Assembly (NCBI RefSeq): GCF_902788255.1
Contig: NZ_CADAJR010000018.1
Location: 1-46,353 of the forward strand
Source: an uncultured Methanobrevibacter sp.
Lineage (GTDB): Archaea > Methanobacteriota > Methanobacteria > Methanobacteriales > Methanobacteriaceae
Reading direction: 5' to 3'
Length of the DNA stretch: 46,353 nucleotides
The notes beneath the pieces are model-generated. The model worked only from the letters and a program-made list of their open reading frames with translations. It was not told where the DNA came from and did not search any database. The position numbers and the translations under genes are program-made. Below, in pieces: positions 31,515 to 46,353 of this stretch (positions are counted from its first letter, which is position 1; every line of letters starts with the position of its first letter).

Positions 31515-34016
31515 ATGGTTTTAGAAGAATTATTGGCCCCTGCAGGCTCATATGATGTGCTTATAACGGCAGTAAATGCAGGTGCCGATGCTGTTTATAT
31601 TGCAGGACAACAGTATGGTGCCAGAGCTTATGCCAAAAACTTCACTATGGAAGAGATTGAAAAAGCCGTGAATTATGCTCACATGAACGGTGCCAAGATC
31701 CATGTGACAGTCAACACATTAATTAACAATTTCGAGATTGTAGATGTCTTAAAATACCTCTTCAAATTATATCAGATTGGAGTGGATGCTGTAATCGTAC
31801 AGGATTTTGGACTGATCTGGCTTTTGAAGACATTCATACCGGATTTGGAGGTTCATGCTTCCACACAGATGGGTCTGAATAACTATTCCTCCATAAAATG
31901 GGCCAGCAAGAACAACATAAAAAGAGTGGTGCTTCCAAGGGAGGTCAACCTCGACCAAATCAGGGAAATCAAAACCCAACTTGCAGACGACAACATCAAT
32001 ATGGACATTGAAGTGTTTGGCCACGGAGCACTGTGCTACTGTGTCAGCGGAAAGTGCTACATGTCCTCATACAACAGCGGAAGAAGTGGAAACCGTGGAG
32101 CCTGTGCACAGCCATGCAGACGTGAATACCGTCTGAAATATCGAGGATACAACATAGGCAACGGTTATCTCCTGTCAACACATGACCTTGCAACATACAA
32201 TCATCTGAATGAAATCTCAGATGCTGGAGTAAAATCACTGAAACTGGAAGGAAGAATGAAATCCGGAGACTATATCGGAACCATCGTAAACAGTTACCGC
32301 AACCTAATTGACGGAAATGAAGGGGACTACAAAAAAGACCTGCACCTTGTTTTCAACCGCCAATTCACAGACGGATACATGATGGGAGACAAGCCTGGAG
32401 ACGTAATGGGCAGAGGACATTCAGGCCATGAAGGATTATACATCGGAGACATTGTGGACATTGACGGCACAAAGGTCACAATCGAAATCAAAAACAAGGA
32501 AATACCTGTGATTTTAGAGCCTGGAGACGGTATAGCATTCAAATACAACGGCAAAATCAAGGGAATATACCTTGAAAACATCATCAAACAGGATGAAAAC
32601 GAAATCATAATTGACACCACCCGTCTTGTCAAGGTCGGAACCGAAGTGTTCATCAGCTATTCCAAATCAACACATGAATACCTGAAGCAGTTTGAAAACG
32701 AAACCATAAAAAACAATGTTGGAATCAACCTGTCAATGACATGGGATGAGGACCTGAACCTGTTTACAAAGGTTGAGTTTCATGTGGACGGCGAACTGAT
32801 CAATTTCAGGCACAAAACAATGGACAAGTTTGAAAAGGCCAAAAACAAGCCGGTAACAGAAGAGACTATAGAAAAACAGTTGAGTAAAACCGGAGGAACT
32901 CCATTCTATATTGAAAACATCAGGTTCAACAATATGCCTGCCGACATTTTCATTCCAATCCGTGAAATCAACCAGATCAGGCGTGAAATATTGGACAATG
33001 CAACCGAACTTCTGATGAACCACTACACCCCTACCAAAAAGGCGGTGAAGCAGGTGAGAAAAGACCTCACAAAATTCTTTGAGGAATATGAAAAGGACAA
33101 GGGAAAAACCAAAAAGAAAACACCTAAACTGTCAATATTTATCGATGACATTTTACAAATCAGAGCGGTTTCAGGTTTTGACTTGAAGAGAATCTATTTT
33201 GACGGCAACTGCCATTACAACAATCCTGATGATTATTTTGAAAACATAAAGGAAACCTTAAAGAATGGAAGCCTCATGGCCTCCCCGACAGAATTCGTAT
33301 GGGTTTTATCATCATTCATATCAGAGGATGATGCGGTTAAATGCAGCGAAATAGTCAAGGAACTGGAAAATGAGGGAATCATCATTTCAGTCATGGGCGA
33401 TTTTCCGGGCATGAAGGAGATATTCGACTGTCCGATATATGGAAATCATAACCTGAATGTATGGAACAGCTTTTGTGTGCGTGACTTGAACGAATCAGGA
33501 TTCAAGTCACTGATACTGTCATCTGAACTTTCAGGAGATGAAATCAGGGAGCTGGTTTTGAAAAATCATGACAGAAACATTGATTTGGAAATGATTGTCA
33601 ACGGTAACCTTGAGGTCATTGTCAGCAAGGACGACTTCACCAACCTGAATGACGGTAAGGACTTTATCATTTCAAATGATGCGGATTACGCAACCCTGGA
33701 AGATAAAAAGAGAAAGAAATTCAAATATAAGATATTCTTTGACTACAACAGACAGAGCCATATCATAAACAAGGACTGCCTGTGCCTGATTGAGGAGATG
33801 AATGAAATCAAGGATTTCGGTCTTGACTCACTGATTCTTGACTGCAGGTATTCCAATGAAAAGTACACCTCACAGATTTTATCAATTTACAATCAAAGTC
33901 TTCAAAACAAAAGTCAGGAGGAACTGACAGAGTTCAAATACAAGATCATGGATTTCTCACAGTCCTACATCAACAAAGGCAATTTCATTGAAGGTAGGTT
34001 ACATGAGAATTCCTGA
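31515..34016 (+). CDS. U32-family protein (RlhA/TrhP-like), first of a pair
   Basis: An 833-residue protein of the peptidase U32 family. Its bacterial relatives RlhA and TrhP hydroxylate 23S rRNA or tRNA rather than cut protein. Residues 1-290 are the U32 domain, opening ELLAPAGSYDVLITAVNAGADAVY in relatives' style. Iron-sulphur-type cysteines lie at 174, 181, 197 and 201 (HGALC ... GKC ... GACAQPC), with an extra one at 176. A middle DUF3656-like region and a C-terminal part of unknown role follow. Overlap with the next U32 gene is 14 bases, so both are one operon. Confidence 0.85.
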   Translation: MVLEELLAPAGSYDVLITAVNAGADAVYIAGQQYGARAYAKNFTMEEIEKAVNYAHMNGAKIHVTVNTLINNFEIVDVLKYLFKLYQIGVDAVIVQDFGLIWLLKTFIPDLEVHASTQMGLNNYSSIKWASKNNIKRVVLPREVNLDQIREIKTQLADDNINMDIEVFGHGALCYCVSGKCYMSSYNSGRSGNRGACAQPCRREYRLKYRGYNIGNGYLLSTHDLATYNHLNEISDAGVKSLKLEGRMKSGDYIGTIVNSYRNLIDGNEGDYKKDLHLVFNRQFTDGYMMGDKPGDVMGRGHSGHEGLYIGDIVDIDGTKVTIEIKNKEIPVILEPGDGIAFKYNGKIKGIYLENIIKQDENEIIIDTTRLVKVGTEVFISYSKSTHEYLKQFENETIKNNVGINLSMTWDEDLNLFTKVEFHVDGELINFRHKTMDKFEKAKNKPVTEETIEKQLSKTGGTPFYIENIRFNNMPADIFIPIREINQIRREILDNATELLMNHYTPTKKAVKQVRKDLTKFFEEYEKDKGKTKKKTPKLSIFIDDILQIRAVSGFDLKRIYFDGNCHYNNPDDYFENIKETLKNGSLMASPTEFVWVLSSFISEDDAVKCSEIVKELENEGIIISVMGDFPGMKEIFDCPIYGNHNLNVWNSFCVRDLNESGFKSLILSSELSGDEIRELVLKNHDRNIDLEMIVNGNLEVIVSKDDFTNLNDGKDFIISNDADYATLEDKKRKKFKYKIFFDYNRQSHIINKDCLCLIEEMNEIKDFGLDSLILDCRYSNEKYTSQILSIYNQSLQNKSQEELTEFKYKIMDFSQSYINKGNFIEGRLHENS

Positions 34017-36420
34017 ATTGCTGGCTCCAGTCGGGTCGATGGACCATCTGAAGGTTGCAATCAACGCCGGCGCAAGTTCAGTTTATCTGTCCGGAAAAAA
34101 CTATGGGGCAAGAAAGTTTGCAGAGAACTTCACGATAGATGAAATCCAAGAGGCAGTAGACATCGCCCATCTTCATAACGTCAAGGTTTACATTACCGTG
34201 AACACGTTAATAAAAGAGGACGAACTTGAAAACGTGATGAATTACCTTGCAAAGCTATATTCGATTGGAGTGGATGCCGTACTGATACAGGATTTGGGAC
34301 TGATAGAGCTGATCAACGAGCACCTTCCAAACCTAAATGTCCATGCATCAACACAGCTTACCTGCGAAAACCAGCACAAGATTGATTATCTTGAAGGCAA
34401 GGGAATAAAAAGGGTTGTCCTTCCCCGTGAAATGAGAAAGGAAGAAATAGCCAATTTGAAAACAAATATGGAACTTGAGATATTCGTTCATGGAGCATTA
34501 TGCTATTCATACTCAGGACAATGCCTGATGAGCAGTTTCAAGGGCGGGAGAAGCGGAAACAGAGGTGCATGTGCCCAGCCATGTCGCCAGAAATACTGGA
34601 TTGACGGAATAAAAAAACAGGATTACTACCTTTCACCATGTGACTTGTCACTATACGATCATTTAAAGGAAATAGCTGAGCTTAACATCAGCTGCATTAA
34701 GATTGAAGGTCGCATGAGGTCAAAGGAATACCTTGCAGTTGTTGTAAGCAATTACAGAAAGGCGTTGAACAAGCTCAAAAGCAACAAAAAGGATTCAAGT
34801 GAAGAAATCAGCCTGGTTTTCAACAGAGGTTTTAGCGAAGGGCAATTCATGAACACTTCAAAAAGAAGCATCCGTTCAGGCCATGTCGGATTGAAGATAG
34901 GTCGTGTAATTAAAAGTTCAGACAACAAAATTGCAATACGCTTAAACGACCATATAAAGACTATTCCGGAAAAGGGAGACGGTTTACTGATTGTAAAAAA
35001 TGACAAGGATTACGGATTTGAAATATCCCAGGACCCTTCCATAACAACACTCAACCACTTCAACAAGGGAAAAAACAAGCCAGTGAAGGATTTGTCCCGT
35101 AAAAATAAGGTAATGGTTGTCAAAAAGGTATGGCAGAACAAAAGGTCCAACTTTAATTTAAACGAATCCGAAGTATACCTCACCAAAAGAAACAGCTTAA
35201 CCAGAAAGGCCAAGGAGATAGAAAACAAGGCATCAAGCTACGTCAAGTCAAAATTGATACTGACATTCTCCCTGAAAAAGAAATATCCTCACCTGAAGGG
35301 AAGGCTGACACTGGCCAACCATAAAACCATAGAATGTGAGGTTACAGGAAATAAGGCCTTTGAAAAACCGCTCAAAAAGAGCGTCAGTGCTGAGACCGTT
35401 AAAAAACAAATGTCAAAAATCGACAATTACCCATATGAAATAACACAAATCAACATCGCCTATGACGGCACACTATTCATTCCGATTAGCAAATTGAATG
35501 AACTTAGAAGGGATCTCTTTGAAAAGCTCAGTCAGGAAGTGGCAGAATCATACCAGCATGAATATAAAAAGATAACATTAAAACAAAAGGAATACCCTGC
35601 AGGAAAAACACAGCCAAATATTTCATTTTATACAAATAACCTGAATCATCTTGAAAACCTTGAGAACGTGAAAAGGGTTTATTTGGAAATTCCTCCACAG
35701 AATGACGATTTGGTCTACGCCCATGATGAGTACAACCTCAATTATATGATCAACTTCATTAAAAGGGCCTGTGAAATTGCATATGACAAGGACTATGAGC
35801 TGATTTGGAAATGGCCTGACATCACTCACGACAAGCTTATTAAAGCATTGAACAAGGTTAGGGGAATCTTAAATAAGATGCACTACACACTTCCAGTGAT
35901 GAACAGCAATTTTAATGCGGAGTACGGTTTTTATTCAATGAACGTTACAAACACACAGACCGTTAAATCTCTCAAAGGGTATAAAATTTTAACTGTATCT
36001 CCCGAGCTTAGAAAGCAGGACTATGAAAACATGATAAGGAATTGTGAAACACCAGAAAAACTGGAATTGTTAGTTCAGGGATCTGTCGAGCTTATGAAAA
36101 CAAGATATTCATTGTTATACGGAGCTGAGAAAAAACAGAAATATAAAAACTATCTGATTGATAAAAACCGCAACAGATACCCGATTCACAAAAGCATTTC
36201 AGGTGAAGAGCTGATAATTTATGACGACAGCGAACTTTCACTTTTAGATGAAATCGATTATTTGAAAAATCTTGGTTTCAGCAATTTCTCAATTGACGGA
36301 CGATACAAGGACGATGACTATTACAAAATGGTTAAAATATATAAAGAGGCATTGAACGGCAATCCCAATAAAAAAGAGCTTAAAAAATTAAGTTCAAAAA
36401 ATACGGTTGCCAACTTTTGA
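34003..36420 (+). CDS. U32-family protein (RlhA/TrhP-like), second of a pair
   Basis: An 805-residue U32-family paralogue of the preceding gene, beginning MRIPELLAPVGSMDHLKVA. The four cysteines expected to bind the cluster are conserved; the first protein's extra cysteine is Ser here. The two proteins share order of domains over their full length but are clearly diverged, so this is an old duplication. The ATG at 34003, preceded by GGTAGGT, is preferred to the TTG at 33988. Both genes probably act on RNA hydroxylation, perhaps on different targets or as a heteromer. Confidence 0.85.
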   Translation: MRIPELLAPVGSMDHLKVAINAGASSVYLSGKNYGARKFAENFTIDEIQEAVDIAHLHNVKVYITVNTLIKEDELENVMNYLAKLYSIGVDAVLIQDLGLIELINEHLPNLNVHASTQLTCENQHKIDYLEGKGIKRVVLPREMRKEEIANLKTNMELEIFVHGALCYSYSGQCLMSSFKGGRSGNRGACAQPCRQKYWIDGIKKQDYYLSPCDLSLYDHLKEIAELNISCIKIEGRMRSKEYLAVVVSNYRKALNKLKSNKKDSSEEISLVFNRGFSEGQFMNTSKRSIRSGHVGLKIGRVIKSSDNKIAIRLNDHIKTIPEKGDGLLIVKNDKDYGFEISQDPSITTLNHFNKGKNKPVKDLSRKNKVMVVKKVWQNKRSNFNLNESEVYLTKRNSLTRKAKEIENKASSYVKSKLILTFSLKKKYPHLKGRLTLANHKTIECEVTGNKAFEKPLKKSVSAETVKKQMSKIDNYPYEITQINIAYDGTLFIPISKLNELRRDLFEKLSQEVAESYQHEYKKITLKQKEYPAGKTQPNISFYTNNLNHLENLENVKRVYLEIPPQNDDLVYAHDEYNLNYMINFIKRACEIAYDKDYELIWKWPDITHDKLIKALNKVRGILNKMHYTLPVMNSNFNAEYGFYSMNVTNTQTVKSLKGYKILTVSPELRKQDYENMIRNCETPEKLELLVQGSVELMKTRYSLLYGAEKKQKYKNYLIDKNRNRYPIHKSISGEELIIYDDSELSLLDEIDYLKNLGFSNFSIDGRYKDDDYYKMVKIYKEALNGNPNKKELKKLSSKNTVANF

Positions 36421-36498: not shown

Positions 36499-38424
36499 AT
36501 GAAAGGAGAAAGAATAACATTGCAAAATATAAAAGGAATAGGGGATAAAATCTCTGAAAAAATACTGAATAGCGTTGGAGGAGAAGAGGAACTCCAGAAA
36601 ATAGTTGATAATGTGGATGTTGAAAAAATATCTGCAGTTGATGGCATAAGCCAAAGAAAGGCAATTGAAATAATGAATCAACTGTTGAACAACCCCGAAT
36701 ATGAGTTCATCAAAAGTGACCGTGCAATGGAACTTTATGAAGACATCATAAATAAGATTTTAGCATATTCAAACACTTCCTACTCCAAAAATAGAATTCT
36801 GCTGCTTTCTCCATCAAAAGACATTGACAAGATTAATTCAAACCTTGATTTTGTAATGAATGCCAAAGAACATGTCTCCCAACTTCCAATCATAAAACTT
36901 AGAGGTTTGATGAAAAATCTGAAAGAAGTTGAAGAGGCCAAACCCGAATATGATCCAAGTAAAGTTATTCTTGTTGAAAGTGCTGAAGACAATTCCTATC
37001 TCACCGATTTGGGACTGAATAAATATTATCCCATAATCACAGCAAGTGATTCACCATTACTTCAGGAAGAAATGATGAATTATGATTTGGTATTTTATGT
37101 ATATTCCCAAGGAATACTTGATTTTGAAGGAATGCCCAATGTCATAATGATAAACATAGATGAAAATGACTATGAAATCGTTCCTGAAAAGATAATTAAC
37201 TTTTTCATACAGAATCAGGAGTTATTCTCCAAAGTCCATGAAATACAAAAGATCAGAAATAAGGAAAGTGTTCTTGGAGAAATCCTGCCGATAATCAGTG
37301 AACTCAATATAATCGACAAAAGGGAAGTCGATATTGAAGAACTTGTGTTGTCACTTAAAGATGAGATGGATGATGAGTTGGAAAAATCCATAAAACAAGT
37401 TGACCTTGAAGGAGATGAAATACTCAACCTATTAAACAATAACTTCCCTCCAAAGATTAGCAAAATATTTGATAAAATTATCAATAAAAGAAAGGAAATT
37501 ATCAAGCAGAAAACAGGAATGAGTTTTGACCCGTACCTCAGGACATATCCCATCCAGATTGATGAAACAGAAATCGAAAGGGTCACACTGGAACAGTCAT
37601 CCAAAAAGGAAAACGACATTTTTGACATTAAAAAAAGCGCCGCAATTGAATTGAATTCAATAAAGAAAAAAGCAATAGCTGAAGTTGAAGATGTAATTCG
37701 ATTCGACTATGAATTCAGTTTAGGCAGTTTTGCATATGAATATGACCTGTGCAGACCCGAATTTGGCGATGAAATAAAGTTGACCGGAGCACTTCATCTG
37801 GAATTAGCACTTAAAAAAGACAAGGAACATGTTCAAAAAGTCGATTACCAACTGACAAAAGACGAAAATGTTGCGTTATTAACCGGAGCAAACAGTGGAG
37901 GTAAAACCACCCTTTTAGAAACCCTGACCCAGATATCAATAATGGCACAGATGGGCCTTCCGGTAAGTGCAACCCAAGCCGAAATAAAATTGTTCGATGA
38001 ACTTTATCACTTCTCAAAGAAAAGATCACTTGATGCAGGAGCATTTGAATCATTCTTAAATGTGTTCATACCAATCGTCACCACCAATAGTGAAAAGTTA
38101 GTATTGTTAGATGAACTTGAAGGAATTACAGAACTTGATGCAGCCGTTAAAATCATATCAACATTTATTGACATGATTAAGGAATCAAATTCTTATGGTG
38201 TTATTGTCACTCATATGGCGAGGGAATTAATGAATTACACCGACATTCGCGTAGACGGTATTGAAGCAAAAGGATTGGATGAAGATTACAATCTTATTGT
38301 GGATAGAACCCCTAAAATGAATTTCCTTGCAAAAAGTACACCCGAATTAATTCTAAAAAGAATTTATGAAAAATCCGATGATGATCTAAAAACCGTATAT
38401 GCTAGAATTTTAGAGAAATTCTAA
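36499..38424 (+). CDS. MutS-like ATPase with N-terminal helix-hairpin-helix
   Basis: A 641-residue protein of the archaeal MutS-related group, distinct from mismatch-repair MutS. Residues 8-65 form a helix-hairpin-helix unit (IKGIGDKISEKIL, VDGISQRKAIEIM) that should bind DNA. A long helical lever region covers about 240-400. The C-terminal ABC-type ATPase has Walker A TGANSGGKTTLLE (about 450) and Walker B LVLLDELEG. There is no mismatch-recognition domain with the Phe-x-Glu motif and no Smr nuclease domain as in MutS2. It sits directly before ubiB. A broken second copy of both genes lies 6 kb downstream. Confidence 0.85.
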   Translation: MKGERITLQNIKGIGDKISEKILNSVGGEEELQKIVDNVDVEKISAVDGISQRKAIEIMNQLLNNPEYEFIKSDRAMELYEDIINKILAYSNTSYSKNRILLLSPSKDIDKINSNLDFVMNAKEHVSQLPIIKLRGLMKNLKEVEEAKPEYDPSKVILVESAEDNSYLTDLGLNKYYPIITASDSPLLQEEMMNYDLVFYVYSQGILDFEGMPNVIMINIDENDYEIVPEKIINFFIQNQELFSKVHEIQKIRNKESVLGEILPIISELNIIDKREVDIEELVLSLKDEMDDELEKSIKQVDLEGDEILNLLNNNFPPKISKIFDKIINKRKEIIKQKTGMSFDPYLRTYPIQIDETEIERVTLEQSSKKENDIFDIKKSAAIELNSIKKKAIAEVEDVIRFDYEFSLGSFAYEYDLCRPEFGDEIKLTGALHLELALKKDKEHVQKVDYQLTKDENVALLTGANSGGKTTLLETLTQISIMAQMGLPVSATQAEIKLFDELYHFSKKRSLDAGAFESFLNVFIPIVTTNSEKLVLLDELEGITELDAAVKIISTFIDMIKESNSYGVIVTHMARELMNYTDIRVDGIEAKGLDEDYNLIVDRTPKMNFLAKSTPELILKRIYEKSDDDLKTVYARILEKF

Positions 38425-38452
38425 AATAGTATATACCACTTTTTACTATTTT
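38407..38452 (+). promoter_or_regulatory. two overlapping hairpins between the MutS-like and UbiB genes
   Basis: ATTTTAGA/TCTAAAAT (38407-38427) and AAAATAGTA/TACTATTTT (38423-38452) are each perfect stems but share bases 38423-38427, so only one can form at a time. The second is followed by only a short AT-rich spacer before the ubiB ATG. They might moderate read-through or ribosome access. Confidence 0.3.
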
Positions 38453-38458
38453 TAATTA

Positions 38459-40111
38459 ATGAAAGTTATACCTAATGCTCAAAACGACCAACTCAAAAGA
38501 TTGAACGAAATATATCGAGTGCTGAAAAAGAACGATTTTGGTTATTTAATTGAAGAAAATACTTTTTTTAAAAAATTTCCGTTTCTTAGAAATCGTAAAG
38601 CAGAAAATGAGGGATTATTCCCAGATACATCAATTCCAATAAGAGTTAGAAAGGTATTTGAAGAATTGGGTCCTGCCTATATCAAACTGGGCCAGATGTT
38701 AAGTACAAGACCCGATCTTGTCGGAGTGGAGATTGCAGAAGAACTTAAAAGTTTAAGGGACAACACTCCAGTCACACCATTCAGTGAAATAAAAACTGTG
38801 ATTGAAAGCGAACTGCAAAAACCCATTGAAGAAGTATTTTCCAAGATTGATGAAACACCAATCGGTTCAGCATCAATAGGTCAAGTATACAAAGCAAGAC
38901 TAAAAGACACAAACGAAGAGGTTGCAATTAAAGTTCAAAAACCAAATTCAAGGGAAATTATAGAATCAGATGTAAAGATAATGAAATTTTTGGCTGACAG
39001 AATCGACAGATATATGTTCACAATGAAGTCATTCAACATGCCCGTGGTGGCACGTGAATTTGAAAGGTCCATATTTAAGGAAATCAATTATATGGAAGAA
39101 GTGATGAATATGGAAAACCTTTCAAAGAACTTCAGGAATGTTTCATACATCAAAATACCAAAGGCATACACAGATTACTGCACAAACAAGATTATAACAA
39201 TGGAACTGATTAAGGGAATTGAAGTTACAAAACTGATTGATGGGAATTATCCGGACATCGACAAGAAAAAGATTGCACAGTATGGCCTGAAATCATACTT
39301 CAAACAGATAATGATAGACGGATTTTTCCATGCTGACCCCCATCCGGGAAACCTGATTGTAACCAAAGACAATAAACTGTGCTATATCGATGAGGGAATG
39401 ATGGGAATCCTGAATGATGACTTTAAAGAAAACCTTGCAGAATTGATATTGCTTTTGATTAGCGGAAATACCAACAATATAATCAAACAGCTGATTTACA
39501 TGAATATCATCACCGCTTCACAAAATACCGATGAGCTAAAGGCAGACCTGGATGACTTGTTAAACAGATACTATGGTGCCGAACTAAAAAATATGGACGG
39601 AGCATTTGAAGATTTGCTTAATGTAATGATTAAACATGAAGTGAACATCCCAAGAGAATTTGTAATGATAGGGCGCGGAATTGCATTGATTGAAGATACC
39701 GGTCGAAAATTGGACCCTGAATTTAATGCGGCATCCGAACTGAAAAAGTTATCCCGTAAGATAGTGATTAACAAATACAAACCCGAAAGGTTGATAAAAG
39801 TGGGTATGAACTACCTGCTTCAACTAGAACATTTGGCAAAGGACTTGCCCGATACAATCAACAATACCATCTCAAAGTTGGAAGAAGGAGACATTGAAGT
39901 AAATATAAAGCTCCAAGATATAAGTGAACTGACAAATCAGCTTTCAGTCTCATTGATTCTTTCAGCATTGATTGTTGGGTCATCACTTGCAATACTTGCA
40001 GACAAAGGACCACAGTTATGGGGAGTGCCTGCAATTGGTTTGATTGGATTCGTATTCAGTGCGGTTCTCGGAGCATATCTGATAATTAAATATATGATTG
40101 AAAACGATTAA
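38459..40111 (+). CDS. UbiB/ABC1/AarF-family kinase-like protein
   Basis: A 550-residue atypical kinase of the UbiB group. Diagnostic motifs are KLGQ (76-79), the Ala/Ser-rich loop GSASIGQVY in place of a glycine loop, the nucleotide-binding lysine in VAIKVQKP, and HADPHPGN. The metal-binding motif reads IDEG rather than the usual IDFG. Two C-terminal membrane helices (LILSALIVGSSLAILA and AIGLIGFVFSAVLGAYLI) anchor it. Methanogens make no ubiquinone, so a role in isoprenoid-lipid handling is only inference. It is 34 bases downstream of the MutS-like gene; the pairing is preserved in the decayed copy downstream. Confidence 0.88.
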   Translation: MKVIPNAQNDQLKRLNEIYRVLKKNDFGYLIEENTFFKKFPFLRNRKAENEGLFPDTSIPIRVRKVFEELGPAYIKLGQMLSTRPDLVGVEIAEELKSLRDNTPVTPFSEIKTVIESELQKPIEEVFSKIDETPIGSASIGQVYKARLKDTNEEVAIKVQKPNSREIIESDVKIMKFLADRIDRYMFTMKSFNMPVVAREFERSIFKEINYMEEVMNMENLSKNFRNVSYIKIPKAYTDYCTNKIITMELIKGIEVTKLIDGNYPDIDKKKIAQYGLKSYFKQIMIDGFFHADPHPGNLIVTKDNKLCYIDEGMMGILNDDFKENLAELILLLISGNTNNIIKQLIYMNIITASQNTDELKADLDDLLNRYYGAELKNMDGAFEDLLNVMIKHEVNIPREFVMIGRGIALIEDTGRKLDPEFNAASELKKLSRKIVINKYKPERLIKVGMNYLLQLEHLAKDLPDTINNTISKLEEGDIEVNIKLQDISELTNQLSVSLILSALIVGSSLAILADKGPQLWGVPAIGLIGFVFSAVLGAYLIIKYMIEND

Positions 40112-40207: not shown

Positions 40208-40659
40208 TTATCTTCTTTTATAAACGACGTAACCTCCTAAGACTGCAGCCACTACAAGTAAAATCAATATTGGATTACCAGTAGCTAACATTGAGTGGAC
40301 AGATCCAGTTGCATTGGTTGCGTTGGTAGGTTCACCAGCAGCTTGAGCAGTTGCATTTTCTAGAGTTTCATTGTATTGACTTCCAGCCCAACCGCCATCG
40401 TCCTGGTAGTTGCTTCCTGCATAATCACTGTCGTCATCTGCAATTCCATCATCATAATCTTGGTAGTTGCTTCCTACATATCCACTGTCGCTATCTGCAA
40501 TTCCATCATCATAATCTTGGTAGTTGCTTCCTACATATCCACTGTCGTCTGCATAGTTACTTCCTAATTGTCCAAAGTCATCTGCTGCACAAACTGCTCC
40601 TGCAGATACAAGCACGCAGAATATTGCCAATATTGCTATATTTTTTTTGAAAGATCCAT
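40208..40659 (-). CDS. secreted, repeat-bearing surface protein with frameshift at an A8 tract
   Basis: A small cell-surface protein. The best start is the ATG at 40657-40659, four bases after GGTGAT. An A8 tract (T8 on the plus strand, 40641-40648) four codons later puts it out of frame with the rest. With nine A's it would give a clean signal peptide (MDLSKKNIAILAIFC, then VLVSAGAVCA before ADDF). After the signal come acidic 19-residue repeats with GSNYQDYDDGIAD, a stalk with four N-glycosylation sequons (NET, NAT three times) and a C-terminal anchor (GNPILILLVVAAVLGGYVV) ending YKRR. An in-frame start at 40777 would place a promoter inside the gene and is doubtful. The frameshift may be a sequencing error, slippage or phase variation. 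Confidence 0.65.
40404..40560 (-). repeat. 57-bp tandem repeats in the surface-protein gene
   Basis: The plus-strand mark TGGTAGTTGCTTCC occurs at 40404, 40461 and 40518, exactly 57 bases apart, giving two full copies and a partial one. Each encodes the acidic 19-residue unit starting GSNYQDYDDGIAD. In-frame unit length allows expansion and loss without frameshift. Confidence 0.85.
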
Positions 40660-40720
40660 AATAATCACCACAAATTTTTGATTGATATGCGTTTTTCCAA
40701 ACAACACATCCTTGTACAAG

Positions 40721-40749
40721 TAAATATATGAAACAAGCCACATATAAAG
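40721..40749 (-). promoter_or_regulatory. TATA elements of the surface-protein gene
   Basis: On the minus strand CTTTATATG (40741-40749) and CATATATTTA (40721-40730) lie 60-90 bases before the ATG at 40659. They fit a promoter with a short leader and argue against a start at 40777. The rest of 40778-40948 is AT-rich with nothing else seen. Confidence 0.4.
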
Positions 40750-40981
40750 TTATTCGAATGTAAGTGCCCACTTGCATATTATTTTAAGAAAATAAGGATT
40801 TTTAATTGATAAAAAAAGAAATAAAAAAGTTAGATTTAAAATTCAACGTTAAACCCCAATAATATCCCTTATTCATTAATAATCATATTGACCGAATATT
40901 CAGTAATAATCTATAATGAATATATAATGCAAAATAAATTTTAACGAAATTTAAATTTAATTTTGAAAAATAACTAAAATA

Positions 40982-41077
40982 ATGGCAAATTTTTCATACT
41001 CCCCCCGTCAAAATGAAAAACGATTTGAAAAAGATGAAAGATTAGCAAAATATTTTAAATTACATGATACAAATTGA
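40982..41077 (+). CDS. possible 31-residue protein leading the STAS/HATPase operon
   Basis: An ORF starting MANFSYSPRQNEKRF and ending KYFKLHDTN. It is rich in charged and polar residues and does not look like random A/T translation. A TATA-like ATTTAAATTTAA (40949-40960) lies 21 bases before its ATG, the spacing of other leaderless genes in this window. Its stop codon lies five bases before the STAS ATG and overlaps an in-frame TTG. It may be a small regulatory protein or a leader peptide. Support is limited to composition and position. Confidence 0.4.
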   Translation: MANFSYSPRQNEKRFEKDERLAKYFKLHDTN

Positions 41078-41082
41078 ATAAT

Positions 41083-41382
41083 ATGAATATTACAAAAACT
41101 TATAATGGAAAGGAATTGACAATTGAAATTGAAGAGCGTATAGATACCGTAACAGCACCAGAATTCGAAAATGAGATAAATGATGAAATTGGCAATTTCG
41201 ATTCATTAATTCTTGATTTTACCAATTTGGAATACATTTCCAGTGCCGGATTACGTGTTTTGATTGCAACACAAAAAAAATTAAAACCTGAAGACATACC
41301 TATGGTCATCAAAAATGTAAATGACACCATCAGTGAAATATTCAGAATGTCAGGTTTTGATAAAATATTGAAGATAGAATGA
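41083..41382 (+). CDS. STAS-domain anti-sigma-factor-antagonist-like protein
   Basis: A 99-residue single STAS domain like bacterial SpoIIAA and RsbV. The phosphorylatable serine lies in the standard place (LEYISSAGLRVLIATQK). It starts at ATG 41083; a TTG nine bases earlier is possible. The last four bases overlap the next gene (ATGA), a HATPase kinase, as in bacterial partner-switching pairs. Archaea have no sigma factors, so its target is not an anti-sigma factor in the usual sense. No Shine-Dalgarno is clear; coupling to the small ORF upstream is possible. Confidence 0.88.
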   Translation: MNITKTYNGKELTIEIEERIDTVTAPEFENEINDEIGNFDSLILDFTNLEYISSAGLRVLIATQKKLKPEDIPMVIKNVNDTISEIFRMSGFDKILKIE

Positions 41383-41756
41383 GTTCAATTTCATTAAAAC
41401 CCGAATTAAGCGAATTATATCCTTTAAATGAATATATTACAAATATTCTAAAAAAAGAGGACCTCAAAGTCAATCTGATTGTTGAAGAAGTTTTCGTAAA
41501 CATTGTTAACTATTCAAATGCCAAACACGTGACTGTCGCCGCCAGTTTTGAAAATCAGATATTGACCGTGGAGTTCATTGATGACGGCATTGAATTCAAT
41601 CCACTGATTATAGAAAGCCCGAAAATTCCAAATAGCATTGAAGATGCACAAATTGGAGGCCTTGGAATATTTTTAACTAAAGAAATGGCCGACAGTCTGG
41701 ATTATAAATATTTAAATGGTGAAAATCACCTGAAGATAATGAAAAAAGTGGAATGA
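41379..41756 (+). CDS. RsbW/SpoIIAB-like serine kinase (HATPase)
   Basis: A 125-residue GHKL-type ATPase like RsbW and SpoIIAB. The N box reads EEVFVNIVNYS (about 36-46), the G1 box IDDGIEFNP, and the G2 box GGLGIFLTKEMAD. It should phosphorylate the STAS partner encoded just upstream, with which it overlaps by four bases. No PP2C/SpoIIE phosphatase, sensor or transcription factor is adjacent. The output of this switch is therefore unknown. Confidence 0.87.
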   Translation: MSSISLKPELSELYPLNEYITNILKKEDLKVNLIVEEVFVNIVNYSNAKHVTVAASFENQILTVEFIDDGIEFNPLIIESPKIPNSIEDAQIGGLGIFLTKEMADSLDYKYLNGENHLKIMKKVE

Positions 41757-41932: not shown

Positions 41933-43072
41933 ATGAATCCAATCCATTTTTTTACATTAGGTTATTACCCTCAGTATCTGTTAATAGGAATAATTATAGG
42001 AATTGTCATTGGAATATACGCATTTTTTAGAGTCAAATACGCTCTTAATGATTCCAAGTTATCCAAAAACAAGGTAATAATAATTAGTGCCCTAATTTCC
42101 ATATTTGCATTAATATGCTGTATGAATGTATGGTCGAATGCTGCAATATACACATTGTACATCTTTTTATGCTCAGTACTCGCAGACATCATAAGACTAA
42201 TCGTGAAATACCCTCTTAAAGACAAACATTTAAAATTCATGCCAAAACTTCACAAAAAAGGTGGGCTGGCATTAGTATTTTTCATAATCATAATTATAGT
42301 CGGAGCATGGGGAATGAACCATATCGATCAAACTGAATACAATATGACCACACAGAAAATAGGCAATGATTCATATAAAGTGATATTCATCAGTGACACA
42401 CACTATGGAACCGTCCAAAATCCACAATTGCTTAAGGACTCGATTTCAAGAATCAATGATATAAAACCAGATATTGTTATTTTAGGCGGAGATATTGTTG
42501 ATGAAAGAACAAGCAATGCTGAAATGAAAGAGGTTTTTGAAGAGTTAAGCAAGATCAACTCAACATACGGCATATATTACGTATTTGGAAACCACGACAC
42601 ACAACCTTCACAAACAGATTATGAAAATGGAAACAGAACATTTACCGACATTGAATTAAATCAAACAATAAAGAAAAATGGAATAAGGATACTGAATGAT
42701 GAAAAAACAACAATCAATGGAGATATTGTTCTGGTTGGAAGAAGTGACGCTGAATGGGATGGAAATGCAAGAGCAAATGTTAGTGAAATACTGAATGAAG
42801 AGGATTTATCAAAATACGTAATAGTTGTGGACCACCAACCTTTAGAGGCAATAGAAAATTCAAAATTAGGCGTTGATTTACAAGTTTCAGGCCATACCCA
42901 TGCAGGACAGGTATTCCCATATAAGGAACTGATAGAATTTGAAGGAATAAATTCATATGGCAAATACACTATCGGAGATATGGAACAGATAGTGTCCTCA
43001 GGCCTTACAGGATGGGGATGGGGAATCAGGAATGAAGGAAAATGTGAATACGTGTTAATTAACATTAATTAA
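41933..43072 (+). CDS. membrane-anchored metallophosphoesterase
   Basis: A 379-residue calcineurin-like phosphoesterase of the YkuE/YaeI type. Four N-terminal membrane helices (about 14-32, 48-65, 70-88 and 109-128) precede the catalytic domain. Metal motifs are complete: ISDTHYG, LGGDIVDE, FGNHDTQ, VVDHQP and SGHTHAGQ. The C-terminus SSGLTGWGWGIRN is typical for the group. In bacteria, relatives act on cell-envelope lipids such as UDP-diacylglucosamine; here a role on envelope phospholipid or pseudomurein precursors is only possible. It sits between the STAS/HATPase pair and the decayed MutS-like copy. Confidence 0.9.
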   Translation: MNPIHFFTLGYYPQYLLIGIIIGIVIGIYAFFRVKYALNDSKLSKNKVIIISALISIFALICCMNVWSNAAIYTLYIFLCSVLADIIRLIVKYPLKDKHLKFMPKLHKKGGLALVFFIIIIIVGAWGMNHIDQTEYNMTTQKIGNDSYKVIFISDTHYGTVQNPQLLKDSISRINDIKPDIVILGGDIVDERTSNAEMKEVFEELSKINSTYGIYYVFGNHDTQPSQTDYENGNRTFTDIELNQTIKKNGIRILNDEKTTINGDIVLVGRSDAEWDGNARANVSEILNEEDLSKYVIVVDHQPLEAIENSKLGVDLQVSGHTHAGQVFPYKELIEFEGINSYGKYTIGDMEQIVSSGLTGWGWGIRNEGKCEYVLININ

Positions 43073-43141
43073 CACTATTTCATATAATATTTCCAGATAA
43101 CTAAAACTCAAAATCGGTTGTAATTTCAAATATATTCTCAC

Positions 43142-44484
43142 TTGGCATCAGAATTTTTAGAATGGATTTTGCCCGTATATTCACAGGGAATCCTTGATTT
43201 TGAAGGAATGCCAAACCTCATTATGACAAACATTGATGAAAATGATTATGAAATCGTCCCTGAAAAAATAATCAACTTTTTTATCCAAAATAAAGACCTA
43301 TTCTCAAGGGTTCATGAAATACAAAAAATCAGAAACAAGGAAAGCGTTCTGGGAGAAATAATTCCAATAATAAATGAGTTGAATATTATAGATAAAAGAG
43401 AAGTAGATATTGAAGAATTAGTGAATTCTGGATGATGAATTAGAAAAATCCATCAAACAGGTTGACCTTGAAGGAGATGAAATTCTCAACTTATTAAACA
43501 ACAACTTCCCTCCAAAGATTAGTAAAATATTTGATGAAATTATAAATAAAAGAAAGGAAATCATTCGTGAAAAAACCGGATTAAGTTTTGACCCATTCTT
43601 GAGAACATATCCTATACAAATTGATGAAACAGAAATTCAAAGAGTAACTTTAGAGCAATCCTCTAAAAGAAAATGACATTTTTGACATTAAGAAAAGTGC
43701 TGCAATCGAATTGAATTCAATTAAAAGCAAAGCTATCGAAGAAGTTAAAGATACAATCAAATTTGATTATGAATTTAGTTTAGGGAGTTTTGCATATGAA
43801 TATGACTTATGCAGACCCCAATTTAGTGATGAAATCAAATTAAAAGGAGCACTTCATTTGGAATTGGCACTTAAAAAGGACAAGGATTATGTTCAAAAAG
43901 TAGATTACCAATTAACTAAAGATGAAAATATTGCTCTTTTGACTGGAGCAAACAGTGGAGGAAAAACCACACTTCTTGAAACATTAACTCAAATTTCAAT
44001 TATGGCACAAATGGGACTTCCTGTAAGTGCGGATTATGCTGAAATCAAATTATTGGATGAGATTTACCATTTCTCTAAGAAAAGATCCCTTGATGCAGGA
44101 GCATTTGAATCATTCTTAAATATGTTCATACCAATCGTCACCACAAATAGTGAAAAGTTAGTACTATTAGATGAACTTGAGGGAATAACAGAACTTGATG
44201 CGGCAGTTAAAATCATATCCACCTTTATTGATATGATAAAAGAATCTAATTCCTATGGAGTAATTGTCACCCATATGGCTCGTGAATTGATGAATTACAC
44301 TGACATTAGAGTGGATAGTATTGAAGCTAAGGGATTAGACGAAAATTACAATTTAATTGTTGATAGAACACCTAAAATGAATTTCCTTGCAAAAAGTACG
44401 CCTGAATTAATTCTTAAAAGAATATATGAAAAATCAGACGATGATTTAAAAGCAGTATATGCAAGAATTTTAGAAAAATTCTAA
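43142..44484 (+). pseudogene. decayed second copy of the MutS-like gene
   Basis: This is a truncated copy of the gene at 36499-38424. Clear homology starts near 43175, at about codon 202 of the parent, so the helix-hairpin-helix part is gone. A 14-base deletion after VDIEEL (near 43425) and a 2-base deletion near 43672 break the frame. The last 800 bases are intact and keep Walker A (GANSGGKTTLLE) and Walker B. In the aligned 180 bases 38041-38220 against 44101-44280 I count 19 differences, of which 18 are silent. The copy was thus under purifying selection until recently. A truncated ATPase fragment might still be made. Confidence 0.88.
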
Positions 44485-44518
44485 AAAAACATATACTACT
44501 TTTTACTATTTTTATTTA

Positions 44519-46173
44519 ATGAAAGTTATACCTAACACTCGAAATGAAAACATCAAAAGATTAAATCAAATTTATAGCGTTTTAAAAAAGAACGATTTCG
44601 GATATCTAATCGAAGAAAATACTTTTTTTAAAAAATTTCCATTTTTAAGAAACTATAAAGCTGAAAAGGAAAATGAATTTCCAGATGAATCAATTCCATT
44701 AAGAATCAGAAAAGTGTTAGAGGAACTTGGGTCTGCTTATATCAAATTAGGACAGATGTTAAGCACAAGGCCTGACTTAGTTGGAATTGAGATTGCTACA
44801 GAACTGCAACAATTAAGAGACAACACTCCAATTACTCCGTTTGATGAAATTAAAGAGATTATTGAAAGTGAACTTGGCGACCAATAGATGAAGTTTAGGC
44901 AAACATTGATGAAAATCCAATTGGTTCCGCTTCTATTGGCCAGGTTTACAGAGCAGAACTAAAGCGCAATGGAGAAGAAGTGGCCATCAAAGTCCAAAAA
45001 CCTAATTCAAAAGAAATTATAGAATCTGACGTCAAGATAATGAAGTTTTTAGCACCTCAAATTGACAAGTTCGTCTCCAAAAGCAAGATTTATAACTTGC
45101 CAGGAATGGTTAGTGAATTTGAAAGGTCCATCTTTAAAGAGATAAATTACATGGAAGAAGTAATGAATATGCAGAATCTTGCAAACAACTTCAAAAATGT
45201 TTCATATATCAAAATACCTCATGCATACACTGATACTGTTCCGGAAAAGTAATTACAATGGAACTAATTAAAGGAACTGAAGTAAGCGACTTAATTAAAG
45301 GGAGCTATCCTGGAATTGACAAGAAAAAAATTGCCAATTATGGTGTGAAATCCTACTTCAAGCAAATAATGACCGATGGATTTTTCCATGCCGATCCACA
45401 TCCTGGAAATCTGATTGTAACAGAAGACAATAAATTATACTATATTGACATGGGAATGATGGGAATGCTTAATGAAGACTTTAAGGAGAATCTTGCAGAG
45501 CTCATATTGCTTTTGATTAGCAGAAACACAAATAACATCATAAAACAACTTATTTACATGAACATCATCACACCATCACAGAATACACCTGATTTAAAAG
45601 AAGACATTGATGATTTATTGCATCTCTATTATGGTGCCGAATTAAAGAACATGGACGGAGCCATGGAAGACCTGCTTAATGTAATGGTTAAAAACGAAGT
45701 CATTCTTCCAAGAGAGTTTGTAATGATTGGAAGGGGAATAGCATTAATTGAAGATACCGGTAAAAAAAAAATTGGACCCTGAATTTAATGCCGCAACAGA
45801 GCTTAAACAATTATCAAGAAACATCGTGATAAATAAATACAAACCTAAACGATTGACAAATGTAGGAATAAACTATCTGTTGCAATTAGAGCATTTGGCA
45901 AAAGATTTGCCCGATACAATCAACAATACAATCTCAAAGCTTGAAGAAGGAAACATCGAAGTAAATTTAAGCCATAAAGGAATAAGTGAATTAGCAAATC
46001 AACTGTCCGTATCTTTAATTTTATCTGCATTAATTATGGGATCATCACTGGCATTATTAATGGATGTTGGTCCTACATTATTTGATATTCCATTATTAGG
46101 ATTGATAGGATTCGTATTTAGTGCAATATTAGGTGGATTTTTAGTAATTGAATATATGTTAGAAAGAGATTAA
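44519..46173 (+). pseudogene. decayed second copy of the UbiB/ABC1 gene
   Basis: This copy aligns over the full length of the gene at 38459-40111, at an offset of 6060 bases at its start and 6062 at its end. A 1-base deletion near 44882 is followed by an in-phase nonsense codon (TAG where the parent has TTT). Another 1-base deletion lies near 45250, and a run of ten A's at 45772-45781 replaces six bases, adding four. Kinase motifs survive in pieces: KLGQ, GSASIGQV, HADPHPGN, and IDMG where the intact copy has IDEG. It is most likely inactive. Confidence 0.9.
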
Positions 46174-46260
46174 TCATCGAATAATAGTGCACTCGACTTT
46201 TTAAATATTATTTTCATCCAAATATGGATAATCTGATTATCTTTAGAGTTTACCTAAAAA
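46174..46260. other. short AT-rich region after the decayed copy
   Basis: About 90 bases without a gene, between the end of the UbiB remnant and the putative insertion-sequence edge. Nothing of note is seen other than a near-palindrome ATCCAAATATGGAT at 46217-46230. Confidence 0.4.
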
Positions 46261-46353
46261 GAGGCTGACTCATAATTTTTGTGTTTAAATTTTTTTTCTT
46301 ATTTTATTATCCTTTAATTTTATATACTAGGAAGTACAATCTATTATTAGAGT
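46261..46353 (+). mobile_element. possible left edge of an insertion sequence
   Basis: GAGGCTGACTCATAA at 46261-46275 resembles the terminal inverted repeats of IS1182-type elements, which often read GGCTGNCTCA. The sequence after it is a T-rich, non-coding leader of the sort found before a transposase gene. The transposase and the other end would lie to the right of the window. This is recognition by style only. Confidence 0.35.

Follow-up and report, generated by a model that had tools for sequence, protein, structure and literature searches.

Among described systems, those closest to the locus reported here include the chromosomal and plasmid-borne dif/pdif islands of Acinetobacter, short site-bounded modules that lack an integrase of their own, carry toxin-antitoxin and accessory genes and are shared between genomes (PMC12907356, PMC6449649). 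The archaeal XerA/dif system has been reviewed (PMC8371274). A search confined to the open-access literature found no account of arrays of this type from Methanobrevibacter. The locus analyzed here carries a decayed gene pair. A pseudogene pair by itself is ordinary; the left edge of this one reveals sites that recur in an array and bound exchangeable cassettes, within one of the dominant methanogen groups of rumen and gut, whose gene gain is little understood.

The window, i.e., the whole stretch of DNA analyzed (46,353 nucleotides), is the complete contig C18 from a Methanobrevibacter draft assembly of 2.2 Mb in 69 contigs, estimated to be 99.9% complete with 2.2% contamination. Handles beginning with G, L and C denote genomes, loci and contigs, respectively.

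An intact and a decaying MutS-like/UbiB pair

The window contains an intact MutS-like/UbiB gene pair (copy 1) and, downstream of it, a degraded one (copy 2):

31515..36420, + strand: two U32/DUF3656 genes (Pfam), preceding the MutS-like gene in the native surroundings of copy 1
36499..38424, + strand: copy 1 MutS-like gene, intact, 641 aa; MutS-domain-V ATPase with HhH N-terminus (profile searches)
38459..40111, + strand: copy 1 UbiB/ABC1-type atypical kinase gene, intact, 550 aa (profile searches)
43175..44484, + strand: copy 2 MutS-like pseudogene, beginning at about codon 200, with two deletions
44519..46173, + strand: copy 2 UbiB pseudogene, with two deletions, a nonsense codon and an A-tract gain

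The copy 1 MutS-like protein, with relatives in 33 of 41 genomes, matches PF00488 (MutS domain V) at 37.6 bits, above the cut-off of 30.2, and stays below the curated scores of TIGR01069 (MutS2; 84 vs 400 bits) and NF052383 (KamC; 99 vs 300). Similarly, the copy 1 UbiB protein carries an ABC1 domain (PF03109, 251 bits) and scores under the UbiB equivalog cut-off (370 vs 488). The gene order U32-U32-MutS-like is kept across the loci of the genus, as judged by synteny.

Two further observations concern the region between the copies. Positions 41074-41756 encode a STAS-domain protein and an anti-sigma-like HATPase_c_2 partner, here in an archaeal host, and this pair has no match among the 99 relative loci compared. 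On the minus strand, positions 40208-40777 encode a 189-aa secreted-looking protein with tandem DDGIADSDSGYVGSNYQDY-type repeats, relatives of which occur at varying positions in L058, L048 and L102.

By self-BLAST, positions 43175-46173 match 37099-40111 with 78.7% identity over 3,021 columns, the copies being spaced 6.06-6.08 kb apart, in agreement with the figure of about 6.06 kb given in a sequence-only reading of this DNA. That reading placed the start at 43142, where an ORF that is open by chance has its first TTG; homology begins at about 43175. Its list of lesions stands in full. Compared with up to 17 relatives, the changes specific to copy 2 are losses of 14 bases after 43428 and 2 after 43664 in the MutS-like pseudogene and, in the UbiB pseudogene, losses of 1 base after 44877 and 1 after 45233, a premature in-frame stop (TAG, 44896-44898) and a gain of 4 A at about 45762. 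About codons 1-200 of the 641 MutS-like codons are absent as well. Deletions, nonsense codon and A-tract gain bear out the statement that the second copy is breaking down. The variety of lesions had been held to argue against sequencing error, and the 14-base loss, the nonsense codon and the truncation are indeed atypical of such errors. The 4-base A gain is not present in an independent, 99%-identical contig (G086:C95, see below).

Phylogeny and selection

The two genes had been proposed to be duplicated as a unit, a claim that the trees contradict. AU tests reject sisterhood of copies 1 and 2 both for UbiB (p=2.3e-5) and for the MutS-like gene (p=0.034); in first trees of 22-23 rows the corresponding p values were 0.12 and 0.21, and denser sampling gave the resolution. 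Copy 1 UbiB groups with RUG11987 (L103) and L101 (support 100/99) and, more generally, both copy 1 and its U32 neighbors, the latter in a species-like tree, cluster with RUG11987, L101 and M. thaueri-like genomes. Copy 2 falls outside this group in the trees of Methanobrevibacter relatives and, on these sequences, looks like a lineage foreign to the host species' own operon. No second MutS-like copy was seen in any other of the 67 genomes of the genus.

By codon position, the MutS-like part of copy 2 diverges from L104 by 0.083, 0.021 and 0.330. Third-position divergence of the MutS-like part is 0.33-0.37, vs 0.02-0.03 at second positions, resembling that of functional orthologue pairs. As the changes are mainly at third codon positions, purifying selection must have kept copy 2 functional through most of its past, its decay being recent.

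A recent tandem duplication by unequal crossover, the origin favored by the sequence-only reading, would account for the tandem orientation and the identical gene order, but with 78.7% identity, mostly third-position changes and sisterhood rejected under the models used, it is hardly credible. Duplication in situ is rejected by the trees. An old duplication within the lineage, preceding the species split and lost elsewhere, would make copy 2 the last decaying paralogue. The distance of 6 kb, the shared orientation, the conserved spacers and the unsettled placement of copy 2 within the genus are all in keeping with such a history. It is nonetheless unlikely, since the lack of a second MutS-like copy in the other genomes of the 67-genome set would require many independent losses, and since the UbiB tail/ABC segment is near-identical to a contig assigned to the bin of a different species.

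A conserved site at the left edge of copy 2

The sequence preceding copy 2 comprises the following features:

41933..43072, + strand: metallophosphoesterase gene
43080..43153, no strand assigned: relic of the 3' end of a transglutaminase-like gene
43154..43179, + strand: left end and left part of the cassette site, forming the junction with copy 2; TTTTGCCCGTATA at 43167-43179

The 5' edge of copy 2 falls within a conserved site, ATTTTGCCCGTATACTA, which is repeated head-to-tail in sister genomes. Its core, TTTTGCCCGTATA, occurs once in the window and twice in the own genome. Over positions 43154-43179, 25 of 26 bases are the same as in the stretch downstream of the same metallophosphoesterase gene in L103, and similar stretches are found in L058 and L112. 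The transglutaminase-like relic has matches in L058 (19362), L107 and L180; the matching gene follows the site in G051 and lies beside cassette genes in G023. The missing 5' third of the MutS-like gene had been counted among the decay lesions. Its absence is confirmed, but because the breakpoint falls inside a conserved recombination-like site, it is better read as a cassette boundary than as decay.

A draft of this many contigs, a position at a contig end and the estimated contamination could point to an assembly or sequencing artefact, either a chimera or a mis-joined contaminant contig. We consider this very improbable, given that the metallophosphoesterase gene adjoins the site not only in the own contig but also in two other genomes (L103 and L058), and that the IS bridge described below is consistent over three contigs.

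The next intact core after copy 2 is located past the ABC genes at C60:3358, in the same orientation as that at window position 43167. The resulting unit, core-MutS'-UbiB'-(IS)-ABC-core (primes denoting copy 2), measures about 6.3 kb without the IS and is built like a single cassette. An ungapped, junction-registered count, made once the junction was known, compared the core with the corresponding MutS-like stretch of relatives: 8-10 of 17 bases agree, a similarity that ranks (median) among the highest 2% of positions in the gene. Gapped-alignment scoring of the MutS-like gene against the site gave no signal. Given the ungapped resemblance, the 5' boundary of copy 2 may have been fixed by a look-alike site.

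Alternatively, ordinary recombination, homologous or illegitimate, could have brought in a foreign copy, with the site at the breakpoint there by chance or marking only a later deletion. The weakness of the resemblance between the MutS-like stretch and the site is compatible with this, as is an array region that acts as a general hotspot. However, the breakpoint lies inside a site of roughly 17 bp and the next intact site, past the ABC genes, delimits a cassette of ordinary size, which renders this route rather doubtful.

Site arrays in related genomes

Across 61 genomes, the core has 41 exact matches and its reversed control 3. Several copies per contig, in a single orientation and 1.3-7 kb apart, are present in G002, G006, G007, G014, G015 and G023, and arrays are found downstream of U32-U32-MutS-like wherever the contig extends that far. 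Genes between the sites include VapBC- and MNT/HEPN-like toxin-antitoxin pairs, zeta-like kinases, reductases and ABC transporters, named from sequence inspection and only in part profile-tested. Entire cassettes recur across genomes, partly beside other neighbors, and relics of other genes are present in the array region.

On one side the array ends at a conserved RNA-like gene, which is encoded on the opposite strand and terminates in the core. It is not a tRNA, and no tRNA or Rfam family matched at the site; its alignment supports a helix that closes on the core and has base pairs in which both partners differ. The structured RNA candidate of ~165 nt (L155, 3839-4020; L143, 12021-12200, minus strand) ends 3' in the site core and has six predicted pairs with changes on both sides. 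In more distant relatives (L143, L159), the MutS-like gene faces the RNA-like gene directly, without an array. The anchor RNA gene was not found in the own assembly. A 24-base site pattern had no match on viral contigs, and the whole region was not found on plasmids.

As in dif/Xer islands, multiple short sites bound modules that mostly lack an integrase. Compared with the 28-bp, 11-6-11 layout, element-side sites read ATTTTG...CAAAAT, while the anchor site has the left arm only. A PF00589 search of 13 genomes found no integron integrase beside the array. One tyrosine recombinase is located on array contig G002:C121 and is kin to scattered ones elsewhere. A divergent XerA-like tyrosine recombinase (L251:289-1371, 360 aa; NF040815 at 100 bits vs a cut-off of 220) is encoded away from the array in 46 of the 67 genomes and is a candidate enzyme for the site; its gene is absent from the own 99.9%-complete assembly.

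A segment shared with another species and split by an IS

The window ends 180 bp past the stop codon of copy 2 UbiB, where the contig runs into an insertion sequence:

46256..46353, + strand: left terminus of a probable IS1182-family element, closing the contig; the own contig C60 starts with the right terminus

A complete IS on the own contig C48 matches the right end of the window and the left end of C60 at 100%. From the IS ends on C18 and C60 and this full copy we infer a C18-IS-C60 join, which would give the order UbiB'-IS-ABC in the own genome. The own IS was recognized by its ends only, its IS1182 family being tentatively assigned via the transposase of a split relative in L055 (NF033551, 1e-35 and 1e-57, both fragments below cut-off). 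The very start of the contig (window 23-99) matches Rfam RF00029, a group II intron domain, so both contig ends look mobile-element-like.

Contig C95 of G086, which was placed in the bin of a different species, contains the final third of UbiB', unbroken, followed by an FtsX-type permease and an ABC ATPase, and joins UbiB' to ABC without an IS. Its UbiB tail is 99.4% identical to copy 2 apart from the 4-base insertion, with a few substitutions in about 590 bases, and the ABC pair is 99.6% identical between C95 and C60. The remainder of G086 is about 80-84% identical to the own genome over the compared neighborhood, short 90% stretches excepted. A 99% segment against this background suggests that UbiB'-ABC moved recently between species, unless C95 is a mis-binned contig, which it may be. 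The G086 lineage, tried as donor, fits the UbiB part and is rejected by the MutS-like part, for which the AU test excludes the G069/G003 relatives of G086 (p=0.01).

Proposed origin of copy 2

With a probability of roughly 0.6, copy 2 is a horizontally acquired allele from another gut Methanobrevibacter, which together with the ABC permease and ATPase formed one site-bounded cassette and was later hit by the IS. This reading builds on the homology of two copies that are not sisters in the trees, the lesions, the purifying selection that preceded them, the junction site, the arrays of sister species and the IS-free UbiB'-ABC arrangement of C95. From these we infer a circle, site-specific recombination, an enzyme, a donor, a direction and a timing. 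In the donor, a recombinase would have linked the genuine site that lies past UbiB-ABC with a site-like sequence within the MutS-like gene, and the excised circle would have carried UbiB and ABC along with the 3' two thirds of the MutS-like gene. This circle would have entered the site array of the own genome, downstream of the native operon, where an IS1182-type element and small lesions would have broken the cassette later, as is expected of a redundant copy.

More tentatively, a trans-acting recombinase in gut Methanobrevibacter might act on a 17-bp core shared with the 3' end of the conserved RNA gene, gathering and shuffling multi-gene cassettes and able to capture core genes via look-alike sites. 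If true, the MutS-like/UbiB/ABC segment would consist of core chromosomal genes captured by a previously undescribed cassette-capture system.

Linkage of the MutS-like and UbiB genes

The joint presence of both genes in copy 2 had also been taken to suggest that their products work together. A contiguous pair is present in 28/67 genomes of the genus, deep branches included (L133, L135, L136), which lends the idea weak support. Against it, the MutS-like gene lacks an adjoining UbiB in about half of the genomes, UbiB being elsewhere or missing there, and in family f2 the two are not neighbors. With adjacency in only this number of genomes, any functional link would be optional, and co-transfer of neighbors is no demonstration of cooperation. 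The conserved unit is U32-U32-MutS-like, and the U32/DUF3656 paralogues are more promising functional partners of the MutS-like protein than UbiB. The locus exemplifies a truncated, co-acquired gene pair that is prone to misreading as duplication plus functional linkage.

Comparison with known systems

A defined site, an anchor and a candidate enzyme are now available for tests. Like the dif/pdif islands of Acinetobacter, the locus belongs to arrays of short site-bounded modules without an integrase of their own that carry toxin-antitoxin and accessory genes. Unlike them, the array is archaeal, its sites all have one orientation and one of its ends is anchored at a conserved RNA-like gene; moreover, the 11-6-11 inverted arms of the Acinetobacter sites have no clear counterpart in Methanobrevibacter. 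A cassette array beside an anchor site, with recurring cassettes, is also reminiscent of integrons, including archaeal integrons (PMC9668308), from which it differs in having no adjoining integrase, short conserved motifs as sites and multi-gene cassettes in both orientations. Finally, the divergent XerA-like recombinase gene, common in the genus and located away from the array, recalls archaeal XerA/dif (PMC2958812). There, however, dif is normally present once per chromosome, whereas the Methanobrevibacter site is repeated in several genomes.
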